IMG/VR virus record: IMGVR_UViG_3300050015_000102
Location: 1-23,809 of that record
From: a virus
Strand: one strand, 5' to 3'
Length of the DNA stretch: 23,809 nt
Part shown: positions 9,173 to 23,809 of the stretch, piece after piece
Layout: every line of letters begins with the position of its first letter
Position numbering within the stretch: position 1 is the first letter of the stretch
The notes under the pieces: model-generated
What the model was told of the DNA's origin: nothing
The model's input: the letters and a program-made list of their open reading frames with translations, nothing else
The model's database searches: none
Position numbers and translations under genes: made by a program

Positions 9173-10196
9173 CTTGTAATTGTGTTAATGTGAGGGGGCG
9201 CCCGCTCTGGCTGACCAAATCTTTTAAGGTGATCGTTCCGTCGCGCCAAAGTTGCGCTTTCCCTTTGCCCAAAAGTTCATCTTGATACGCAACATCGTGC
9301 CGATTTAAAAAAGCGTCAAAGGTTGTGTCCGCCGGAATCTGGCCTAGGTCACTTGCGCGGGTCCCTTTGACTTCATCCACGTTTATTCCGAGTTCCCTGA
9401 ATGTGCGGGTAACAGGGGTAAGGACGCATCTGCAATTAAAATGTAATGGCGGTGATTGAAACGGGAAGTTCCCCTTAATCGGATTGCCGTCAAGATCCCA
9501 CTCAGCGCCGGAGCGGGAAACGCACTGTTGCGCACATGTATGTGAATCGAAAGTGGCAAGGTGCTGAACCCCTTTAATTACATCGGCGTTAGCCTGATAG
9601 GTTGCAAGACGGGCATCATTTGCCACCTGCATTATCGATGTGTGGACAAGCGCACTCGCATTTCTGCGGCTTATATCCATAATTCCCGGTATTCCCAGTC
9701 GTGGCGATCCTGCTACTCTTCTGATTATGTCTTGCAATGTTTCATTGGCGGCGATGCCTTGCCTTACCTGTGCAGCAAACTTAAACTGTAAATCTTCGCT
9801 CTGCTTAGCCCACCACGCACCGGAAGCCGACCCATCTATTAATGATCCATTGACGAGCGCTTTCATAACTGCCACTGTCGGCAAAGAGACTTCAACACCG
9901 ATTGCAGCAAAAGATTTTACAGTGAAATCCGCCTCATGATTCGCAAGGCCGGAGAAATTAAGGCTGCCCTGAATGTTATTATAGCCTTGATCAATGGCCT
10001 GGTTCACTTCCTTCAGAAGAGCCCGGACGCGCGATTTTCCATAATCTGAAAGACCGTTTGTTAATTTATACGTTAATTCTCTTTGCATCTTCATAAGCAA
10101 ATCCGCGACCTTTTTCTGCTCACCAGACGTAAATCTTAAAAGATAAACTTGATGTGAAAGTGTGGCATCTGTTAACGTCAAGTCTGCGCTCTTCAT
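9162..10196 (-). CDS. Head morphogenesis protein (Mu gpF-like)
   Basis: The 344-residue protein contains, at about residues 185-265, the Phage_Mu_F domain: 'HTSIMQVANDARLATYQAN', 'FDSHTCAQQCVSRSG' and 'PPLHFNCRCVLTP', with the typical Cys and His residues. Members are minor head proteins that sit near the portal or are injected with DNA. I start it at the ATG at 10196. That ATG overlaps the stop of the endonuclease gene by four bases and has GAGG eight bases upstream. An upstream in-frame ATG at 10295 would add 33 residues that merely read the endonuclease gene in another frame. Confidence 0.85.
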   Translation of the reverse strand: MKSADLTLTDATLSHQVYLLRFTSGEQKKVADLLMKMQRELTYKLTNGLSDYGKSRVRALLKEVNQAIDQGYNNIQGSLNFSGLANHEADFTVKSFAAIGVEVSLPTVAVMKALVNGSLIDGSASGAWWAKQSEDLQFKFAAQVRQGIAANETLQDIIRRVAGSPRLGIPGIMDISRRNASALVHTSIMQVANDARLATYQANADVIKGVQHLATFDSHTCAQQCVSRSGAEWDLDGNPIKGNFPFQSPPLHFNCRCVLTPVTRTFRELGINVDEVKGTRASDLGQIPADTTFDAFLNRHDVAYQDELLGKGKAQLWRDGTITLKDLVSQSGRPLTLTQLQAGL

Positions 10197-10666
10197 GCTG
10201 CCAACCTCGCTACTTCGTAACGGCGCAACTGGCCTTCCGTCATTCTTGCCTTTACTTCCGGCGATCTCTTTTGTCCGATTCTTTTCCTTAGACATTCAGG
10301 AGAAATTTTTCTCCCTTTTAAAGTTGCTGATGTTTTTGCCCGCGTCTCTGCACTTATAATCATTCCAAAACAGCCACGGCAAGCGTACGGCTGAATATTA
10401 TAGCCATTCTCATAAGCTTTTAATGCGTCAATCCATTTTTGTTCTGCCTTCATTAGTAAGTCTTTATCCTTTACCAATTCAAGCACTTCAAAAACGAAAG
10501 TACCTGCCCCATACTTCACCCATGATCTTTGAAGCTTTGCAGAGTTATGCCTACCCGCTCGCAATGTAGCGAAATGCTCACGTTTCCGCTTATGGAGATT
10601 GACGGCCTGCCCGACATAGCATTTGCCAGTTACGGTATTTAAGAATTGATATATTCCACTTTTCAT
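10193..10666 (-). CDS. GIY-YIG homing endonuclease with NUMOD3-type tail
   Basis: The 157-residue protein has 'SGIYQF' (GIY) and 'CYVGQ' (YIG equivalent) within its first 20 residues, the conserved basic pair and His ('KRKREHF', residues 26-32), Glu75 in 'KAEQKWID' for metal binding and Asn90 in 'NGYNIQPYA'. The C-terminal half carries NUMOD3-like repeats ('SAETRAKTSATLKGRK', 'SPEVKARMTEGQ') used for DNA recognition. It is complete. It overlaps the portal stop by four bases at its start and the gpF-like start by four bases at its end. A freestanding mobile nuclease is inferred; the target is probably in the neighbouring head genes of a related phage. Confidence 0.88.
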   Translation of the reverse strand: MKSGIYQFLNTVTGKCYVGQAVNLHKRKREHFATLRAGRHNSAKLQRSWVKYGAGTFVFEVLELVKDKDLLMKAEQKWIDALKAYENGYNIQPYACRGCFGMIISAETRAKTSATLKGRKISPECLRKRIGQKRSPEVKARMTEGQLRRYEVARLAA

Positions 10667-12111
10667 GGGTTAACTATACCATTATCCTGTTGATTTGGCA
10701 AGGTATTTGTTGTAATAATATCAGGTTTTGGCAGTGGCGAACTCTCTATTTGCCCTTGCATTTCTTCCAGCGTTAATTCCGATTCAATAATTTCATTCTG
10801 TTGCAACTGTTTAAACAATACATCAAAAGAGATAGCACCGGACTGCCATGCTCCGACTAAAGCGGTTAATCCTTGTGGGTCTAAACCAACAGGCATGAAG
10901 TCTCTGTTAAGTTCAATGCTCCATTCGCCTGGACTTCCCGCCCACGCGCTGAACGTATTTAATGCCTTAGTTAATCCGATAGAAAGGGTTTGAGCGATTG
11001 CCGATAATATGCTTGATTCCCCTGCCCTGTGAATCTGTGCTGTCTGCGCTGTTTCAACGGCCTTCTTTTCACTGGAAAGCAATCTTGCACCCAGTATTGA
11101 CATCTGTGATTCCATGCGTTCTATGGCCTTCTCAATGGCCTGCAAACCTTGACCAGTAAACTCAAGAAAAGAAGCTTTAGCCTGCGGATCAGGAAATACC
11201 CAGGCCGATGCACTGCCGACATAGAGTTTTTCGCTTGCATTTTCCGGTGTGTAACCTGAAATAACTGCCGTGGGTAATCCGGTGAAGTGCAAACCATGTG
11301 CGTAGTCTGCGTTCATTCTGTAATGAGCAAGATTTACATCCACAAGGTCAATCAGTGGCGGTTCGTCAACTTCAGGTGTCGTATTGTCAATGCCGATGAA
11401 CACAAACGGAATATAATCAAGCGGCTTGCCGTTCATAAGAGGGAATAAATCTTCGCCGACTTGTTCATCTTCTTTTTTCTCATTGATTCGGAAAACTCTG
11501 ACACGGTATTTGCCTTCTAAAAGGTCAAGTACGCGGTAATGAACTTCTGTCTTATGCTCAAATTCAGTGCCTTCAATAGCAGCGTCTTCAGTCAACACAA
11601 CCATCGTCAAAACATTATGGTTATTAATCCGGCCAGTTTTCCAGTTGATTATTGTCTCTGCATTATACTTTTGCATGGATGGCCTAAGGCCCAGCTTTTC
11701 CACATCGGCTAGGGTCATGCCCGCAACAGACTGCGAGGGGTAATCAACAAGAATACCCATACGTCCGGAGGTTAATACTTCAATGGCTGTTTGCTGTGCG
11801 AATATCTGAAAATCAATACCTGACATTGTGACATCATCAAGAAGGTCATCAACTGAAGGCGCAACATCAACAGCCGGTTCCTTTCTGAACATCATGCCGG
11901 CGAGGGCTGAAATAGTGCGCCACGTTGCATTGAAGAACGAGGCTCTTAGTTTGTAAGCGGAATAATCAGAATCGGTTTGATCGGCCAATCTTGGCAAGAA
12001 AAGAGCCCCTGCATCATGTACGGCCTTTTGGCCTCGAACTGTATCCCGGCACTTGCGCCAGGTATCGATCATTGCAGTGTAATCTTTATGCTGGGTATCA
12101 ACTGTGCTCAT
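10663..12111 (-). CDS. Portal protein (DUF4055 family)
   Basis: The 482-residue product has features of the DUF4055 portal family: 'WRKCRDTVRGQKAVHDAG', 'YKLRASFFNATWRTISAL', 'GMMFRKEP' and 'DFQIFAQQTAIEVLTSGRMG', with a later 'DVNLAHYRMNADYAHGLHFT' and 'GARLLSSEKKAVETAQTAQI' typical of the wing and clip. It forms the dodecameric channel through which DNA enters the head. It starts with ATG after AAAGGG and is preceded by a 51-residue gene whose stop overlaps that ATG. Its position after the terminase agrees. Confidence 0.85.
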   Translation of the reverse strand: MSTVDTQHKDYTAMIDTWRKCRDTVRGQKAVHDAGALFLPRLADQTDSDYSAYKLRASFFNATWRTISALAGMMFRKEPAVDVAPSVDDLLDDVTMSGIDFQIFAQQTAIEVLTSGRMGILVDYPSQSVAGMTLADVEKLGLRPSMQKYNAETIINWKTGRINNHNVLTMVVLTEDAAIEGTEFEHKTEVHYRVLDLLEGKYRVRVFRINEKKEDEQVGEDLFPLMNGKPLDYIPFVFIGIDNTTPEVDEPPLIDLVDVNLAHYRMNADYAHGLHFTGLPTAVISGYTPENASEKLYVGSASAWVFPDPQAKASFLEFTGQGLQAIEKAIERMESQMSILGARLLSSEKKAVETAQTAQIHRAGESSILSAIAQTLSIGLTKALNTFSAWAGSPGEWSIELNRDFMPVGLDPQGLTALVGAWQSGAISFDVLFKQLQQNEIIESELTLEEMQGQIESSPLPKPDIITTNTLPNQQDNGIVNP

Positions 12112-17884: not shown

Positions 17885-18078
17885 AAAACCTCCTTGAAAT
17901 ATTTTTCATATGCTAAATTGGTTGTAGGGATTGCTGAATATTCATCCTGTGTCATTTCCAGTTCAGTTACTTCTTTTGCGCCCTTTGTCCGTTTCATTAA
18001 TTCTCGGAAACGATCTATGTTAATAATATTTGTATAAATAAAAGTGCCATCGTTTAATTCTATTTTTAATACTTTCAT
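17881..18078 (-). CDS. Hypothetical small phage protein, 65 aa
   Basis: The 65-residue product (MKVLKIELNDGTFIYTNI...) has beta strands near the N terminus and an acidic helical C terminus ('AKEVTELEMTQDEYSAIP'). The start overlaps the preceding gene's stop and its own stop overlaps the next start, as ATGA. A purine-rich GGAAGAGATAAGG lies before ATG. It is part of the stack of small genes. No family is recognised. Confidence 0.55.
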   Translation of the reverse strand: MKVLKIELNDGTFIYTNIINIDRFRELMKRTKGAKEVTELEMTQDEYSAIPTTNLAYEKYFKEVL

Positions 18079-18230
18079 GGCCTTATCTCTTCCAAAATTT
18101 CTTTAATGAGCGCCGTCGCGTCCTGAATCTTCCTGGCTGCAACGGTTGAATAAAGCGGATGTATCGGTTGCTTGGTTTCCTTTACAAGGTTTTCTAGTGC
18201 AAATAAAATAAGTTGGAGTCTGGTCTTCAT
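18075..18230 (-). CDS. Hypothetical small helical protein, 51 aa
   Basis: Found in the gap between small genes. It starts MKTRLQLILFALENLVKETK and ends 'TALIKEILEEIRP', almost wholly helical with a leucine-rich first half. Both ends overlap neighbours: its ATG overlaps the stop upstream, and its TGA overlaps the start of the next gene. It is real in the sense of tight packing; function unknown. Confidence 0.6.
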   Translation of the reverse strand: MKTRLQLILFALENLVKETKQPIHPLYSTVAARKIQDATALIKEILEEIRP

Positions 18231-18346
18231 GACTTCACTACCTTCAGTAACCCGGCTCTTTTTGCCATTGCCCGCACTTGTTTAATTGTGCTGCCTTTCC
18301 TGATCTGGCGGAGGCCGGTATTATTATGGTGTCGCCGCGTCTTCAT
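18227..18346 (-). CDS. Hypothetical very small basic protein, 39 aa
   Basis: The 39-residue frame (MKTRRHHNNTGLRQIRKG, then a helix 'STIKQVRAMAKRAGLLKVV') is highly basic and could bind nucleic acid. Its ATG overlaps the TGA of the gene before (18343) and its TGA overlaps the next ATG. AGGCAGG stands before the ATG. Size and overlaps suggest a genuine gene in a coupled string; no family recognised. Confidence 0.55.
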   Translation of the reverse strand: MKTRRHHNNTGLRQIRKGSTIKQVRAMAKRAGLLKVVKS

Positions 18347-18591
18347 ACCTGCCTCTGCGCAATCGCCGTAGCGTGGTCTTTTGTTTGCACTTGAATGTAG
18401 GCTTCCTGTTCGGCCAACCGGATCAACCCGCGATCTTTCGGTGCCACCTTATAAAGTTTATTCAATTCGCCACTGTAGTCGGTCAACGGGTCTTTCTGTA
18501 CCCTACTTATTAATTCCCGGATGATCAGGGTGTAGGCGTTGACCTTCTTTTCTTGGAGTTCATGCGCTGCCGCTCGTTTCCCTGTTGTCAT
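18343..18591 (-). CDS. Hypothetical protein, 82 aa, start of the small-gene string
   Basis: I choose the ATG at 18591, since AAGGA precedes it at good spacing; an in-frame ATG at 18645 has no ribosome site and would begin inside the palindromic region. The product is helical and charged: 'MTTGKRAAAHELQEKKVNAY', 'LIIRELISRVQKDPLTDYSG', 'DRGLIRLAEQEAYIQVQTKD'. It ends with an ATGA overlap with the next gene. It is the first gene after the recombinase and probably the first gene of a separately expressed string. No family recognised. Confidence 0.6.
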   Translation of the reverse strand: MTTGKRAAAHELQEKKVNAYTLIIRELISRVQKDPLTDYSGELNKLYKVAPKDRGLIRLAEQEAYIQVQTKDHATAIAQRQV

Positions 18592-18613
18592 GGTGCAAGT
18601 CCTTAATTTTCCT

Positions 18614-18687
18614 TGTATACGAATAGCAGCACTTGTGCAGCTCAATGTATACGTGCTATATAATAAAGTTTTGATATAATTGTATCA
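18614..18687. repeat. Palindrome-rich region beside the recombinase gene
   Basis: TGTATACG occurs twice in direct orientation, at 18614-18621 and 18646-18653, each with the palindrome GTATAC. Between them is GCAC-TT-GTGC. Further on is a near-perfect 16-base palindrome TGATATAATTGTATCA at 18672-18687, ending on the recombinase stop codon. The AT-rich part TATATAATAAAG lies between. It is a candidate binding or crossover site for the serine recombinase, or an operator for the string of small genes. Confidence 0.4.
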
Positions 18688-19299
18688 TCTCAAAAGCTCC
18701 GCTGGTTCATTTTCAACCTTAATTTTCTTCTTTCTGCCACCTCTTGCACCGTAATATCTCGCTGAATAACAAGTGAGAATTTTCATAATATCCTCTGCCA
18801 ATTCTTCTTCATATTTTTTGTCTTTCACTTCCATTATTTCAACTGTGATTTCCAGATTGCTAAATATGGCATCAAGATATTCATAACCAAATCGAGCAAG
18901 CCTATCTTTGTATTCAATCAGCACCCGTTCAACTTTACCCTCAAAGCACATCTTGATTAGTTTGTGTATGCCGTTTCGCTTCTCATTTATCCCACTGGCA
19001 ATCTCGTCAATCAAAACATACTTGTAACCCTTGGCTTCTGCGTGTTTTCTCAACCTGTCTTTTTGCCGTTCAAGGTTTTCTTTCTGCTTTGCCGTTGAAC
19101 ATCTCGCATAAATCACAGTCAACTTTTCTTGTTTCTCTTTCTCGACTCCCATATAAGCGTCTAAGTCTTCCTGACGGAAACGCCTATGCTCACCAGTAGT
19201 CTTGAAAGATTTTATTTTTCCGTTGTTGGCAAGCGTCTTTAGTGTGTTGATTGACACTCCAAGATATTCACTTGCTTCTGTGATTTTATAAATTTTCAT
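18685..19299 (-). CDS. tnpA: IS607-type serine recombinase (TnpA-like)
   Basis: The 204-residue protein has the two-part layout of IS607 TnpA. It has an N-terminal MerR-like HTH (residues 3-50: 'KITEASEYLGVSINTLKTLA', 'GEHRRFRQEDLDAYM'), and then a serine recombinase domain with 'VIYARCSTAKQKENLERQK' including Arg66 and catalytic Ser68, later Arg residues in 'EYKDRLARFGYEYL', and a C-terminal 'YSARYYGARGGRKKK'. IS607 recombinases insert a circular element into DNA by Ser-linked strand exchange. No TnpB gene stands downstream as usual. Its start overlaps the methyltransferase stop by four bases, so it is made with that gene. Confidence 0.85.
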   Translation of the reverse strand: MKIYKITEASEYLGVSINTLKTLANNGKIKSFKTTGEHRRFRQEDLDAYMGVEKEKQEKLTVIYARCSTAKQKENLERQKDRLRKHAEAKGYKYVLIDEIASGINEKRNGIHKLIKMCFEGKVERVLIEYKDRLARFGYEYLDAIFSNLEITVEIMEVKDKKYEEELAEDIMKILTCYSARYYGARGGRKKKIKVENEPAELLR

Positions 19300-20270
19300 A
19301 AAATACTCTTAATGCTGTGCTTTATGACCGCACAATTAAAACCGTTTCCTAATGTCTTATATCTTTGTGTGTTTGATATTCCCTCTGTATAATTATCGGG
19401 CAAACTTTGTAGTCGTTCACATTCTATCGGAGTGAGTTTACGAGTCTTTGTCCCATCGGTATGATATAATCCTGTTTTAGCACCACGACCACCAGTAAGG
19501 GCATCAAGGGCAGTCGATTTACCATCAACTGAATATATCCTATCTCCCTGTCCGCCTTTACCAATCTGACCGATACGGACAATATTGTGTGTTCCTTTAT
19601 AATCTGTTGCCCTGAGTGCTTGTCCTTTCTTTTCAAAAGGCATTTCGTGAATTGTATAATCAAATCGTTTTGTAAAATCCATCGTTGTAAAGTATTTTTC
19701 TTCTACATTTTTTTCTAAAATATCTTTGAGCAAAATACCCCTGTCCTCTGGTTGCGTGACGTTTAGTATGTTGGTCCAAAATAAACGCTTTCTTGACTGA
19801 CCACTTACTAATGCGGCATTTATCATTATTGGTTCAACTCCTAGCGTTTCGGTGATTAACTGCTTAGCTTCTTTCGGCATTGAGTTTACATTTTCAAGGA
19901 CAAAATACTTTGGCTTAACTTCTTTCAAGATACGGACATACTCCCAGAACAAGCCGGAACGAACACCGTCTAACCCTTTCCTATTCTTTTTTGCGATTGA
20001 TAAATCTTGGCAGGGACTTCCGCCTATTAGTAAATCAATACGAATCAATGCACCCGGTTCATTATATATTCCACTGTCATCCACCAAACAACTTTCTCTG
20101 CCATAAACTTTCTTAACATCCCCCAATTGAATTGTCTTTGGAAAATTCTTTTTCGTTACTTGCAGGGCATATTTATCTATCTCGCTGGCGTAATACTCAA
20201 CCTCAAAGCCCAACTCCTTAAAAGCCTGTTGTGCTATGGATATTCCGTCAAATAATGAAAGTATTTTCAT
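19296..20270 (-). CDS. C5-cytosine DNA methyltransferase
   Basis: The 324-residue enzyme has motif I 'LSLFDGIS', motif IV 'GGSPCQDLS' with catalytic Cys87, motif VI 'ENVNSM' (residues 126-131), motif VIII 'QSRKRLFW' and motif X 'RYKTLGNGF' near the end. It resembles the short, Dnmt3-like group of phage methyltransferases. No restriction nuclease accompanies it, so it is probably solitary: protecting phage DNA from host restriction or marking regulation/packaging. The target cannot be read from sequence. It overlaps the upstream small gene and the recombinase by four bases each. Confidence 0.92.
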   Translation of the reverse strand: MKILSLFDGISIAQQAFKELGFEVEYYASEIDKYALQVTKKNFPKTIQLGDVKKVYGRESCLVDDSGIYNEPGALIRIDLLIGGSPCQDLSIAKKNRKGLDGVRSGLFWEYVRILKEVKPKYFVLENVNSMPKEAKQLITETLGVEPIMINAALVSGQSRKRLFWTNILNVTQPEDRGILLKDILEKNVEEKYFTTMDFTKRFDYTIHEMPFEKKGQALRATDYKGTHNIVRIGQIGKGGQGDRIYSVDGKSTALDALTGGRGAKTGLYHTDGTKTRKLTPIECERLQSLPDNYTEGISNTQRYKTLGNGFNCAVIKHSIKSIL

Positions 20271-20452
20271 AGGTTTGCTTCCTTGATTATTTCGTCCACT
20301 TTTCCCTCTTTTAATTTATTAACTACTTCCTCTGCCGTATCCATAATCTTCTGCAATTCTTTTATGGATATGACCTTTTCCAATGGCTCAAAGAAATAAA
20401 CCTTCTCGTCCTCTGTCTGGAAATACTCTTTTGTTACCTTTATGACTTTCAT
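20267..20452 (-). CDS. Small acidic/helical protein, 61 aa, first of the methylase operon
   Basis: The product is an N-terminal beta part ('MKVIKVTKEYFQTEDEKVYF') and a helical part ('IKELQKIMDTAEEVVNKLKE'), with many Glu and Lys. AAGGAG stands before ATG and a sigma70-type promoter just upstream. Its stop overlaps the methyltransferase start. It may be a small regulator of its operon partners; no family recognised. Confidence 0.65.
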   Translation of the reverse strand: MKVIKVTKEYFQTEDEKVYFFEPLEKVISIKELQKIMDTAEEVVNKLKEGKVDEIIKEANL

Positions 20453-20465
20453 ATTTCACTCCTTA

Positions 20466-20494
20466 AATATACTACATTTTGGGTTAAAAAGCAA
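20466..20494 (-). promoter_or_regulatory. Sigma70-type promoter for the methylase-recombinase operon
   Basis: On the minus strand TTGCTT (20489-20494) and TATATT (20466-20471) are separated by exactly 17 bases. The -10 box begins 14 bases ahead of the small-protein ATG, so the leader contains AAGGAG. Confidence 0.6.
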
Positions 20495-20506
20495 GTGATT
20501 TTAACC
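20482..20506. promoter_or_regulatory. Inverted repeat (operator candidate) over the -35 box
   Basis: GGTTAAAA (20482-20489) and TTTTAACC (20499-20506) are perfect inverted arms separated by nine bases, and the interval includes the -35 box of the promoter. A dimeric repressor or the methyltransferase itself could bind here. There is no T-run, so a terminator is unlikely. Confidence 0.5.
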
Positions 20507-20552
20507 GATTTCTTTTGATTTTGTTGGATTTTCATAAGCAGTTAGAACCTCC

Positions 20553-20786
20553 CTATAGTTGCTCTTTCACCGCCGCAATCAACTTATCCAGTGCCTCACT
20601 GTTGGCCTCAGGCGATAGGCATCTAGTCCCAATAAAAGACCGTAATACACAGGCGTCACATCGCATTCCTTTAGCCTCGACAAAATATTTGCATTCCCTT
20701 TGCTGGTCTTGATTCTCGGCGGTGCATCTCAGTTTTGCATTGCATTTATTTTGTTTTTCAAATTGTATTTCTGAATTTTCCGGCAT
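20553..20786 (-). CDS. Cys-rich small protein, 77 aa
   Basis: I choose the ATG at 20786: GAGGA is eight bases upstream, while the open frame otherwise begins with a TTG at 20801. The product has Cys15, Cys21, Cys32, Cys43, Cys46 and Cys56, suggesting a zinc or iron-sulfur site in a small phage protein. A helical C terminus ends 'LDKLIAAVKEQL'. It follows the repressor gene with an overlap of the longer version, so the two are probably one transcript. No family can be named. Confidence 0.6.
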   Translation of the reverse strand: MPENSEIQFEKQNKCNAKLRCTAENQDQQRECKYFVEAKGMRCDACVLRSFIGTRCLSPEANSEALDKLIAAVKEQL

Positions 20787-20797
20787 GAGATAAGTCC

Positions 20798-20992
20798 TCA
20801 ATTTAACAGGTCTTTAGCGTCAAGGCCTAAAACCTTAGCTATTTTGTTTAGTGTTTTGAAGGTTGTTGTCCGGCGCATTAAGATAAAGTCGATTGCCTGC
20901 CTGGTAATAGGGAGCGCACTTGAAAAAGCAGCCGAATCTTTATATCCTGCCCGCTTCATTTCCATCTTTAGTTTTGTGATATTGATTTGCAT
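20798..20992 (-). CDS. Cro/CI-type repressor (XRE HTH), 64 aa
   Basis: The 64-residue product has an XRE-type HTH at about residues 18-62: 'DSAAFSSALPITRQAIDFIL' gives helices 2-3 and 'FKTLNKIAKVLGLDAKDLL' helices 4-5. It is short, like Cro, without an oligomerisation domain. No ribosome site precedes ATG; the promoter upstream would put the transcript start at or beside it, so the message could be leaderless. It faces the plus-strand early genes across the control region and probably represses one or both promoters. Confidence 0.8.
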   Translation of the reverse strand: MQINITKLKMEMKRAGYKDSAAFSSALPITRQAIDFILMRRTTTFKTLNKIAKVLGLDAKDLLN

Positions 20993-20998
20993 GGCTAA

Positions 20999-21027
20999 AG
21001 CATAAACCTTTTAAACTAATTTTGCAA
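20999..21027 (-). promoter_or_regulatory. Repressor promoter, probably giving a leaderless message
   Basis: On the minus strand TTGCAA (21022-21027) and TATGCT (20999-21004) are 17 bases apart. Transcription would start about seven bases after the -10 box, near 20992, which is the repressor's ATG. The -35 box lies within GCTTGCAA, also present at the opposing promoter. Confidence 0.55.
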
Positions 21028-21078
21028 GCATTTTCTTTTGTCGATGTATTCCATGCAAAAATAATTTGAAAATAAAGC

Positions 21079-21107
21079 TTGCAATCGGCTTTTACCTATG
21101 GTACGCT
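21079..21107 (+). promoter_or_regulatory. Early rightward promoter with operator over the -35 box
   Basis: TTGCAA (21079-21084), spacer of 17 bases, TACGCT (21102-21107); TG one base ahead of the -10 box gives an extended -10. The -10 match is modest (3 of 6), so the extension matters. It faces the HNH and DUF2303-like genes. The -35 is part of the GCTTGCAA site. Confidence 0.5.
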
Positions 21108-21376
21108 ATTCCCCAAAGCAAAATAAACGAGAAAGGAAAACCGTCAAGCCTTAATGTCATAAAGTTTTTATCTGCGAGTCTGATTTTGGCAGTTCAAGGG
21201 CTGCAATCAAAAACGGACAACCTTTTAGAAACGACAAAGAGCGTTGCAACTAGGCCGTGGTTGCAAACAGTAGCGGGAGAACAGCCGGACGCAAGCAAAG
21301 AACAAAGTAAGATGTAAAGGTTACACGGTAAAATGTAAGGGGTTATTAATAAAGATGTCAAGGAAAGGGGGAATGA

Positions 21377-21688
21377 ATGGCAAGAAGTTATTTCACTAGG
21401 ATGAAATGGAACGCAGCGAACGTCGAAAAATGCAGAAAGCACCGTAAAACTTGGCGGGAAAAAAACCCGAAAAAAATAAAAGCTGAGAATGTCGTAAACA
21501 AGGCAATTATCAAGAGAGACATAGAAAGGAAACCTTGTGAAATTTGCGGAACGTTTCCAGCTGAGGCACACCACGATAATTATGATGAGCCATTTTTGGT
21601 CAAGTGGTTATGCAGCGATTGTCACCGCAGACATCATCTGATTTCAATGGGATATAAAATAAATGTGCCGATGAATGCGCAACAATAA
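21377..21688 (+). CDS. HNH-type zinc protein, first early gene
   Basis: The 103-residue product has a basic N terminus ('KCRKHRKTWREKNPKKIK') and a compact zinc/HNH fold: Cys54 and Cys57 ('CEIC'), His65-His66 ('EAHHDNYDEP'), 'KWLCSDCHRRHH' with Cys79, Cys82 and His86-His87. This type is widespread in phages, often annotated as HNH endonuclease, but lacks an obvious catalytic Asn, so it may only bind DNA. AAAGGGGGAATGAATG gives a purine-rich ribosome site. It is the first plus-strand gene after the control region. Confidence 0.7.
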   Translation: MARSYFTRMKWNAANVEKCRKHRKTWREKNPKKIKAENVVNKAIIKRDIERKPCEICGTFPAEAHHDNYDEPFLVKWLCSDCHRRHHLISMGYKINVPMNAQQ

Positions 21689-21709
21689 ATCTATAAGAAG
21701 GAGGACATT

Positions 21710-22093
21710 TTGAAAACCACGGAAACAGTATCATTGGAATCAATAGGGGCCGGTGCCGCAGTCGAGCGCTTTCAACTCGCGCTGCAGGAGGTTTTGGACA
21801 ACATCATCGACCCGAACACGGACGCGAAAAAGGCAAGGGTAATCACCTTGAAAATCACAATGAAGCCGGACGAAAACCGGGAATTCAGCTCAGCGGAAAT
21901 CTCAGTAGGCACTACCCTGGCGCAGATGGAGCCGGTCAAGACCAAAATCTTTATCGGTAGAGATCAGCAGGGCCACGGCGTTGCCTGTGAGTATGATCCC
22001 GATCAGATGCAGATGTTTCAACCGCCTGCACTTCCGGCGGGAATGGACAATATTTACAAGCTCAATAAAAAGGAGGCCGCGAAAACATCATGA
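21710..22093 (+). CDS. Replication-terminator-like phage protein
   Basis: The 127-residue product is beta-rich in the middle ('RVITLKITMKPDENREFSSA', 'EISVGTTLAQMEPVKTKIFI') after a helical start with 'AAVERFQLALQEVLDNIIDP'. The pattern '(A/V)....ALQEV..NI.DPNT.A...R.I...(I/V).(M/L)KP' is what I recall for phage proteins annotated as 'replication terminator protein', which commonly precede a DUF2303-like gene, as here. The start is TTG, with AAGGAGG seven bases before it. The end overlaps the next ATG by four bases. Confidence 0.7.
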   Translation: MKTTETVSLESIGAGAAVERFQLALQEVLDNIIDPNTDAKKARVITLKITMKPDENREFSSAEISVGTTLAQMEPVKTKIFIGRDQQGHGVACEYDPDQMQMFQPPALPAGMDNIYKLNKKEAAKTS

Positions 22094-22806
22094 TCATTGT
22101 AAACGCTATTAACAAATTGCTCGACTTGGCCAATCCAGTAACATTTGATTTTGGCGGCCGGATGTATACCAGCAAGGGGCTTGTGCCGGTAAAAGAGCCC
22201 CTTCCATATCCGTTGACCGTTCATACCCTATCAGGATTGGCGGATTACCTGACAAAAAAGATCGATGCCCTGAATACAGAAACGCTGGTTTTGCACGTCG
22301 GAAGTCCGACCGAAGTTAATCTTCTCGGTTATTTACAAGGTGCCTCTTTTTGTGAACGGGCGGAATTTATCAGCGCAGTTTTCGAGCCGCCACAATTTCG
22401 TATGGGCGATTATGCCAGCCTTGAAAGTTTCCTTATTGGCATCCAGGCTTATTTCGTTCAGGACGCAAACACAGCGGCGCTTCTTAAGGTTATCGGCAAC
22501 ATCAAAGACGAAAGCGTAGTTAATTTCAGCGACAATGGAGTCACTCAGGCCGTAACCGCAAAAACAGGCATCAGCATGGTAGAAATCACGCCTGTTCCTA
22601 ATCCGGTAACCCTGCGGCCATTCCGCACCTTCCCCGAAATCGAACAACCGGAAGGTCTTTTCGTTTTCCGAATGAGACAGCAGGAAAAGCAAGCCCCGGC
22701 CTGCGGCCTTTGGGAAGCGGATAACAAGCAGTGGAAGATTGAAGCGGTCAAGGGAATCGCGGCATGGTTGCAGGAGAGACTGCCGGAGATCCCGATTATA
22801 GCGTAA
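22090..22806 (+). CDS. DUF2303-like phage protein
   Basis: The 238-residue product matches the layout of phage DUF2303-like proteins: 'FDFGGRMYTSKGLVPVKEPL' near the N terminus, 'PLTVHTLSGLADYLTKKIDA', 'HVGSPTEVNLLGYLQG', 'FEPPQFRMGDYASLESFLIG', and later 'VTLRPFRTFPEIEQPEGLFV' and 'FRMRQQEKQAPACGLWEADN'. Function is not known; these genes are expressed early with recombination or replication genes. The start overlaps the previous gene. Confidence 0.75.
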   Translation: MIIVNAINKLLDLANPVTFDFGGRMYTSKGLVPVKEPLPYPLTVHTLSGLADYLTKKIDALNTETLVLHVGSPTEVNLLGYLQGASFCERAEFISAVFEPPQFRMGDYASLESFLIGIQAYFVQDANTAALLKVIGNIKDESVVNFSDNGVTQAVTAKTGISMVEITPVPNPVTLRPFRTFPEIEQPEGLFVFRMRQQEKQAPACGLWEADNKQWKIEAVKGIAAWLQERLPEIPIIA

Positions 22807-22953
22807 AAATAAACCTGGAGAAAGGCCGTTGAAGTGCTGGTGCGCCATAGGTCCACTACTGGCAGGCGTGAGGTAAACACTAAAGCAGGAATACGAGCTG
22901 GTACAAATGATACCCTAACAAACCTGCCACCAGCGCGATCAACAGGAGGAATT
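22807..22953 (+). other. 147-base gap with complementary segments
   Basis: No gene is convincing here. GCTGGTG (22836-22842) complements CACCAGC (22928-22934), and GGCAGG (22861-22866) complements CCTGCC (22923-22928); GGTA and TACC frame a small loop in between. These could form a structured leader for the next gene. A 15-codon frame from TTG 22830 after GGAG is too short to accept. Confidence 0.3.
22936..22949 (+). repeat. CGATCAACAGGAGG leader, first copy
   Basis: These 14 bases contain the ribosome site (AGGAGG) of the gene at 22954 and recur exactly at 23125-23138 before the gene at 23143. Confidence 0.85.
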
Positions 22954-23121
22954 ATGAAAAAAAATCATGTTTGGATAATTGAAGTGGAGTTGGCTTGGGG
23001 TGAATGGATTCCGTGGTATGGCGAATCATGTGCTACTAAAAAGCTGGCACATAAAGCACTCCTTTCCTTAAAACAAATACACTTTATGAAATTCCGTATT
23101 AAAAAATATGTAGGCGTGTAA
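22954..23121 (+). CDS. Small Trp-rich early protein, 55 aa
   Basis: The ATG at 22954 has AGGAGG at good spacing; longer in-frame readings from 22834 lack one and cross the structured gap. The product opens MKKNHVWIIEVELAWGEWIP and has four Trp in the first 21 residues, then a helix 'KKLAHKALLSLKQIHFMKF' and basic end. The pattern of Trp, 'VE......W.P', is common in small phage proteins that take a domain of unknown function. Function unknown. Confidence 0.65.
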   Translation: MKKNHVWIIEVELAWGEWIPWYGESCATKKLAHKALLSLKQIHFMKFRIKKYVGV

Positions 23122-23124
23122 GCA

Positions 23125-23138
23125 CGATCAACAGGAGG
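23125..23138 (+). repeat. CGATCAACAGGAGG leader, second copy
   Basis: An exact second copy of the 14-base leader, supplying the ribosome site for the gene starting at 23143. Confidence 0.85.
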
Positions 23139-23142
23139 GAAT

Positions 23143-23370
23143 ATGGGGGCAACAATGATACAAAAATATAAATACGAAGAATTGCATAATCTAGGTCATT
23201 TTGAAGAAATAGATTTTGTTCTTTTTGGAGATCACGTTGACGAGATCGAGCGGTTGCGGGAGCAGAACAAGGCGCTGTTGGAAGCGTTAAAAGAGGTGAT
23301 TAAAATATCTGACCGTAAACATGAAGCGTGGGACAAAGCAAAAGCCGCAATCGCAAGGTGTGAAAAATGA
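23143..23370 (+). CDS. Small coiled-coil early protein, 75 aa
   Basis: The product has a short N-terminal part ('YKYEELHNLGHFEEIDFVLF') and a coiled-coil C-terminal part with the phage-typical sequence 'IERLREQNKALLEALKEVIK' and 'DKAKAAIARCEK'. Similar 'LR.QN..LLEAL......A...A..AIA' tails are found in many small phage proteins. AGGAGG precedes ATG; a second ATG (MIQKYK) lies four codons later. Its end overlaps the next possible start. Confidence 0.7.
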   Translation: MGATMIQKYKYEELHNLGHFEEIDFVLFGDHVDEIERLREQNKALLEALKEVIKISDRKHEAWDKAKAAIARCEK

Positions 23371-23402
23371 ACTACCGAATCATTAAATTGGAGGAAAACG
23401 GC

Positions 23403-23645
23403 ATGGGAAAAGACATCACTAAAAGCGCTAAAGGGTTTTTGATGTTCCTCGGTTGCGGAGCAATCATTGTTATCCTTCTCATGGCCTGGGTTCTCTTTGT
23501 ACCATCGCCACGGCTTGAGAGGGTGAAGATTGCCATGCACGATGAGCAGACCTTTCAACAGTTACGGCAGAAGCACGGTTTAAAGGCGACGGGGATTGTG
23601 GTCTACGAAGAAGACGGCAAGGCTTATTATTACAAGGACGGGTAA
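23403..23645 (+). CDS. Single-span membrane protein, 80 aa
   Basis: I choose ATG 23403, since GGAGG stands eight bases before it. An upstream in-frame ATG at 23367 (overlapping the previous stop by four bases, with weaker AAGGTG) would add 12 residues. The product has a hydrophobic span (about residues 11-35, 'FLMFLGCGAIIVILLMAWVL'), then a soluble part 'HDEQTFQQLRQKHGLKATGI' and 'VVYEEDGKAYYYKDG'. It is an early membrane protein of unknown role. Confidence 0.6.
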   Translation: MGKDITKSAKGFLMFLGCGAIIVILLMAWVLFVPSPRLERVKIAMHDEQTFQQLRQKHGLKATGIVVYEEDGKAYYYKDG

Positions 23646-23683
23646 AAGGTAAAGTTTCAATAATGCAGGCGGGGAGCGGAAAG

Positions 23684-23809
23684 ATGGAAAACCTATCATA
23701 TCTTAGAACAGAATATGCCCGGGAAAAGATGATCGAGGAATACAACAAACCTTATCCAGTAAAGGAGGTTATTATGGGTTTTAATAATGAAGAAAAAGAA
23801 TGGCTTGAT
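23684..23809 (+). CDS. Early phage protein, start only (runs off the right edge)
   Basis: An open frame from ATG 23684 (GGGGAG and GGAAAG upstream) encodes MENLSYLRTEYAREKMIEEY and stays open to the end. A second in-frame ATG at 23774 has a stronger ribosome site (AAAGGAGG five bases upstream). Whether the product starts at the first, the second, or both cannot be decided here; the upstream 30 codons are plausible coding sequence. Confidence 0.5.
   Translation, partial: MENLSYLRTEYAREKMIEEYNKPYPVKEVIMGFNNEEKEWLD

Follow-up and report, generated by a model that had tools for sequence, protein, structure and literature searches.

In the OR region of phage lambda, repeated near-palindromic operators lie over two divergent promoters, PRM for cI and PR for cro, and it is the cI message, not that of cro, that is leaderless. 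In PY54, one of the N15-type telomere phages, the cro and cI messages were both found by RACE to be leaderless (PMC4488713). The same was found, by RACE and N-terminal sequencing, for the cI-like gene paaR2 of CP-933P, a cryptic prophage of E. coli O157 (PMC8630535). Proven leaderless phage messages are few, and those found belong to repressor genes: lambda cI, PY54 cI and cro, and paaR2. Here we compare with these systems a control region in a stretch of 23,809 nucleotides (the window), which is a whole virus record and probably a fragment of the genome of an uncultured phage; its terminase belongs to a family common to many siphophages (about 55-57% identity). The features of the region are collected in Table 1.

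Table 1. Coordinates of promoter elements, candidate sites and genes in and around the control region
Feature	Position	Strand	Comment
Gene for a Cys-rich protein, second in the minus unit	20553..20786	-	Shine-Dalgarno -5.9 kcal/mol at ATG 20786; ordinary, unlike the regulator
64-aa Cro/C1-type HTH (HTH_26) regulator gene	20798..20992	-	First gene of the minus-strand operon; ATG 20992-20990
Site A, TTTGCATGG	20986..20994	+	WTTGCAWGS; covers regulator start codon and predicted +1
-10 TATGCT of regulator promoter (P-)	21004-20999	-	6 bases before ATG 20992-20990
Site B, TTTGCAAGC	21021..21029	+	WTTGCAWGS; covers P- -35
-35 TTGCAA of P-	21027-21022	-	Within operator-like site B; 17-base spacer to -10
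Site C, TTTGCATGG	21051..21059	-	WTTGCAWGS; between P- and P+
Site D, ATTGCAAGC	21077..21085	-	WTTGCAWGS; covers P+ -35
-35 TTGCAA of divergent promoter (P+)	21079-21084	+	Within operator-like site D; 17-base spacer
-10 TACGCT of P+	21102-21107	+	Extended -10 TG at 21099-21100
Two further TTGCAA (21244, 21261)	21244..21266	+	Plus-operon leader; without match to the longer WTTGCAWGS
HNH-type endonuclease, first plus-strand gene	21377..21688	+	phrog_2340 E=1.4e-16; strong Shine-Dalgarno (-10.4); leader about 260 nt
phrog_997 (replication terminator) and phrog_1029	21710..22806	+	Conserved in relatives

Divergent promoters and mirrored sites

The control region, a stretch of about 120 bases, holds two predicted promoters back to back. 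Scored with a sigma-70 weight matrix, which was built with frequencies from general knowledge and may not fit the sigma factor of the host, P- ranks 11th and P+ 15th of the 47,538 start positions scanned over the two strands. Their hexamers are imperfect, with 8 and 7 of 12 consensus matches, respectively, and a stricter consensus scan (9 of 12 matches) listed neither. The ranks support the divergent pair proposed in the initial annotation, and its TTGCAA -35 boxes with 17-base spacers on the two strands proved exact to the base on direct reading. That both strands have TTGCAA as the -35, which had been pointed out as well, is true but trivial: the hexamer is identical to its reverse complement, and finding it on both strands is uninformative by itself. 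The signal lies in the GC that flanks it and in the sites being inverted relative to each other.

Direct reading also places the mirrored GCTTGCAA and the mirrored TTTGCATGG where they had been annotated. TTTGCATGG at 20986-20994 has its mirror CCATGCAAA at 21051-21059, and the 8-mers TTGCAAGC (21022-21029) and GCTTGCAA (21077-21084) each occur in a single copy within the window. Of Markov sequences, 0.8% contain within 122 bp both an inverted pair of 9 bp or longer and another of 8 bp or longer. A blind motif search, for any 9-base pattern with at most three twofold-degenerate positions and four sites, yields WTTGCAWGS at exactly 20986(+), 21021(+), 21051(-) and 21077(-); for these four copies in 100 bp, 11 of 3,000 shuffles score as well. 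Both statistics favour the proposal that the mirrored sites are operator-like. The pair at 20986 and 21051 had been taken for a second class of mirrored site, a distinction that falls away, for it follows the same degenerate motif as the other pair. One further copy of WTTGCAWGS lies within the window, at 11670. A cruder repeat test based on mismatch counts was not significant and is uninformative, because poly-A/T words dominate it, and we therefore grade the array as probably, not certainly, real. Candidate sites A to D are thus present, as judged from the motif, over both divergent promoters. TTGCAA itself occurs eight times in the window, and four of these copies fall within 240 bp (21022-21266; p of about 3e-4 under uniform placement). 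Additional TTTGCA or TTGCAT words at 20688-20745, inside the second gene, and at 21262, in the plus-operon leader, may be extra half-sites. A sigma-54 reading of TTGCA was rejected by eye, since neither site A nor site C has a GG upstream at the spacing that sigma-54 demands.

The regulator and its predicted leaderless message

The product of the first minus-strand gene is a small single-domain HTH protein, whose match to Pfam HTH_26 over residues 7-63 is barely over the cut-off (E=1.2e-4, 22.7 bits against a cut-off of 22). The protein is HTH only, and a C-terminal oligomerisation or cleavage domain of the lambda and P22 CI type is absent. An in-frame stop lies directly 5' of its ATG. We found no relatives of the protein among viral contigs, phages, plasmids and 12 records, or in 395 genomes from the phylum of a MAG that holds a distant phrog_1029 relative, so that a phylogenetic footprint of the operators is not possible by this route. 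A PDB sequence search gave no relative, the AlphaFold model from the single sequence is of low confidence (pLDDT 57.5), and no loci were obtained with the HNH and p100 proteins as search anchors.

Six bases separate the -10 of P- from the ATG, which would put +1 on the A of the AUG, and for leaderless promoter geometry this ATG ranks second among the 805 ATGs of the window. Its best Shine-Dalgarno candidate is AAAGG, 12-14 bases ahead of the ATG (12-base gap, -3.4 kcal/mol); it falls in the promoter spacer, upstream of the predicted +1 and hence outside the predicted message, and a functional Shine-Dalgarno sequence is absent. Such a sequence, at -4 kcal/mol or better, is found at a possible start of 40 of the 45 genes. 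The initial annotation had described the ATG as lacking a ribosome site, which our calculation bears out, and had the message begin at the AUG. The latter is supported as a prediction by the missing Shine-Dalgarno sequence and by the recurrence of the same geometry, with a different head protein, in the relative L002 (see below). On the strength of this sequence geometry, the regulator message probably starts at the AUG without a leader, a conclusion that we regard as well supported rather than shown. Ordinary Shine-Dalgarno sites precede the majority of the HTH genes fetched from other phages, and the leaderless geometry is therefore not general. Neither the 5' end of the regulator message (z 1.14) nor the plus-operon leader (z -0.93) folds better than shuffles, so an RNA switch is not supported, and an Rfam search of 18000-23809 found nothing.

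Elsewhere in the window, a gene for a GIY-YIG endonuclease (10193-10701, minus strand), probably a homing endonuclease, starts just past a portal-type gene and has the best promoter score of the window. Its promoter, TTGCCA-17-TATAGT with an extended -10 TG, stands exactly 6 bases before the ATG, and a good Shine-Dalgarno sequence is lacking; we predict that its message is the second leaderless one in the window.

Gene order and relatives

After the HTH gene, the minus strand continues with the gene for the Cys-rich protein, a promoter-like site and genes for a small protein, a C5 methyltransferase, an IS607-type recombinase, an O-like/primosomal replication protein, terminase subunits and structural proteins. 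The HTH gene is the first of an operon leading to replication, packaging and structural genes, as a cro gene would be, and the divergent gene that faces it encodes an HNH endonuclease, not CI. No CI-type gene is seen in the 23.8-kb fragment; one may lie outside. At 20453-20530 on the minus strand, TTGCTT-17-TATATT and a good Shine-Dalgarno sequence precede the genes for a 61-aa protein (p61) and the C5 methyltransferase, and the -35 of this promoter-like site lies within an inverted repeat, GGTTAAAA...TTTTAACC, which may be a separate operator. The IS607-type transposase gene (a serine recombinase; 18685-19299, minus strand; NCBIfam E=2e-54) overlaps the methyltransferase gene, and no TnpB-sized partner is among the neighbouring ORFs listed.

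In the relative L002, whose phrog_1029 protein is 60% identical to that of the window, the layout is likewise divergent, with a head gene on the replication/structural strand facing an HNH gene. The 122-aa product of the head gene does not match the 64-aa regulator in sequence and belongs to no recognised HTH family. Upstream of its ATG stands TATAAT at a distance of 6 bases; there is no Shine-Dalgarno sequence, and the ATG ranks first of 302 for leaderless geometry. P+ of L002 has an extended -10 too. The WTTGCAWGS array is absent from L002, and its control region has no four-site motif of the same class; the operators therefore have no phylogenetic footprint there. Near its other end, on the strand of the HNH operon, L002 carries genes for a tyrosine integrase and a Cas4-like nuclease. 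Beside this integrase, at L074 959-1126, the reading frame 'WWRRRELNPLPF' resembles a mistranslated tRNA end and may mark an attP. A whole tRNA was not detected with ARAGORN. The closest relative of the plus operon is L003 (81% over part of phrog_1029), in which the operon extends to a YqaJ exonuclease, a DNA methylase and a weak NinB match.

Proposed role and comparison with known systems

From what the sequence shows, namely its elements with their statistics, the order of the genes and the absence of a Shine-Dalgarno sequence, we infer a start site, protein binding, a repression logic and a Cro role, and propose what is on balance the probable reading: a divergent early control region of a siphophage, with a leaderless Cro-type autorepressor over both early promoters. 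P- would serve the 64-aa HTH protein and then the minus-strand series through to the replication, packaging and structural genes, and P+ the opposite operon of HNH, phrog_997 and phrog_1029, to which recombination genes are added in the closest relative. RNA from P- would begin on the A of the regulator AUG, and its translation would rely on the 5'-terminal AUG. The HTH protein may then bind the WTTGCAWGS sites as a Cro-type repressor: sites A and B would block P- at +1 and at the -35, site D would block P+ at the -35, and site C could aid cooperativity. In this way the protein would damp its own operon together with the opposite one. It is the small size, the gene position and the placement of the sites that lead us to a Cro-type autorepressor. 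Because the divergent gene encodes an HNH protein and a CI may lie outside the fragment, we suggest that the protein acts in the manner of a Cro and do not class it as an established one. A further-reaching version, a one-protein switch, is conceivable but doubtful: in such a phage lineage, operons of the lambda PL and PR types would stand joined back to back without a CI, and the entire early programme would be set by one leaderless autorepressor of 64 aa that reads four WTTGCAWGS sites built into the two -35 boxes.

The initial annotation had seen here a genetic switch with a repressor and had likened its message to the leaderless cI message of lambda from PRM. The divergent promoters of that description are supported, as is a small HTH regulator; the implied cI/PRM role is not, since the gene heads the replication, packaging and structural operon and thus occupies the position of a Cro. 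A CI-type prophage repressor, made from a PRM-like leaderless promoter and holding off P+ as the lytic promoter, would be in keeping with the leaderless cI of lambda and PY54 and the cI-like paaR2, with the tyrosine integrase of L002 and with the fact that no second HTH_3 or HTH_26 repressor is seen in the fragment. Moreover, a promoter-like TTGCTT-17-TATATT stands before the p61-methyltransferase unit, and the regulator message would not have to extend into the lytic genes. We nevertheless consider a CI unlikely: the protein has only 64 aa and no oligomerisation or cleavage domain, the gene lies on the replication/structural strand, as does the L002 head gene, sites A and B would block the regulator's own promoter, and no terminator-like site was found after the regulator gene.

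Two other explanations leave the HTH gene in place and question what surrounds it. The TTGCAA repeats may be no operators but the -35 favoured by the host sigma factor, the promoters and the HTH gene being real. TTGC does recur at other promoter-like -35s, as TTGCCA (10701), TTGCTT (before p61) and TTGCAT (L002 6226), and the array is missing from L002; yet sites A and C carry the longer motif outside any good promoter, and the sites have the GC flank in common, at the shuffle frequency given above, which makes this explanation quite improbable. There is likewise only a slim chance that the regulator message is leadered and starts further upstream, the -10 beside the ATG being fortuitous. AAAGG would have to act as a poor Shine-Dalgarno sequence, and a weaker upstream candidate on the minus strand, TTGCAT-17-GAAAAT, ranks 353rd on the weight matrix, but the promoter at the regulator ATG is by far the best on this strand here, and its geometry recurs in L002.

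A predicted leaderless message at the head of a lytic operon, seen again in a relative whose head protein is unrelated, would point to selection on the geometry irrespective of the encoded protein. The region itself, a compact promoter pair with one motif, is open to footprint and RACE testing. Like lambda OR, it has near-palindromic repeated sites over divergent promoters and one HTH protein whose message is, here by prediction, leaderless. Its minus and plus operons resemble the PR-side and PL-side operons of lambda, with the HTH gene where cro sits; the leaderless gene is thus in the cro position, and a cI is not seen. In the 97-bp divergent HTH region of paaR2/ydaS (PMC8630535), the regulator is leaderless from its AUG, as proven there by 5' RACE and predicted here, but two divergent HTH regulators face each other, whereas here a single HTH gene stands opposite an HNH gene. 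The best published match is phage PY54, whose cro fits better than lambda cI/PRM: in that divergent phage control region, too, a small Cro is made from a leaderless message, and a strong promoter directly abuts the start codon (PMC4488713). The differences are that cI and cro both flank the PY54 region, where we see one regulator, and that PY54 Cro binds a single 16-bp operator that leaves its own promoter uncovered (PMC4488713), whereas our candidate sites lie over both promoters. The control region is a good fresh example of a known phage type, not a new kind of system.
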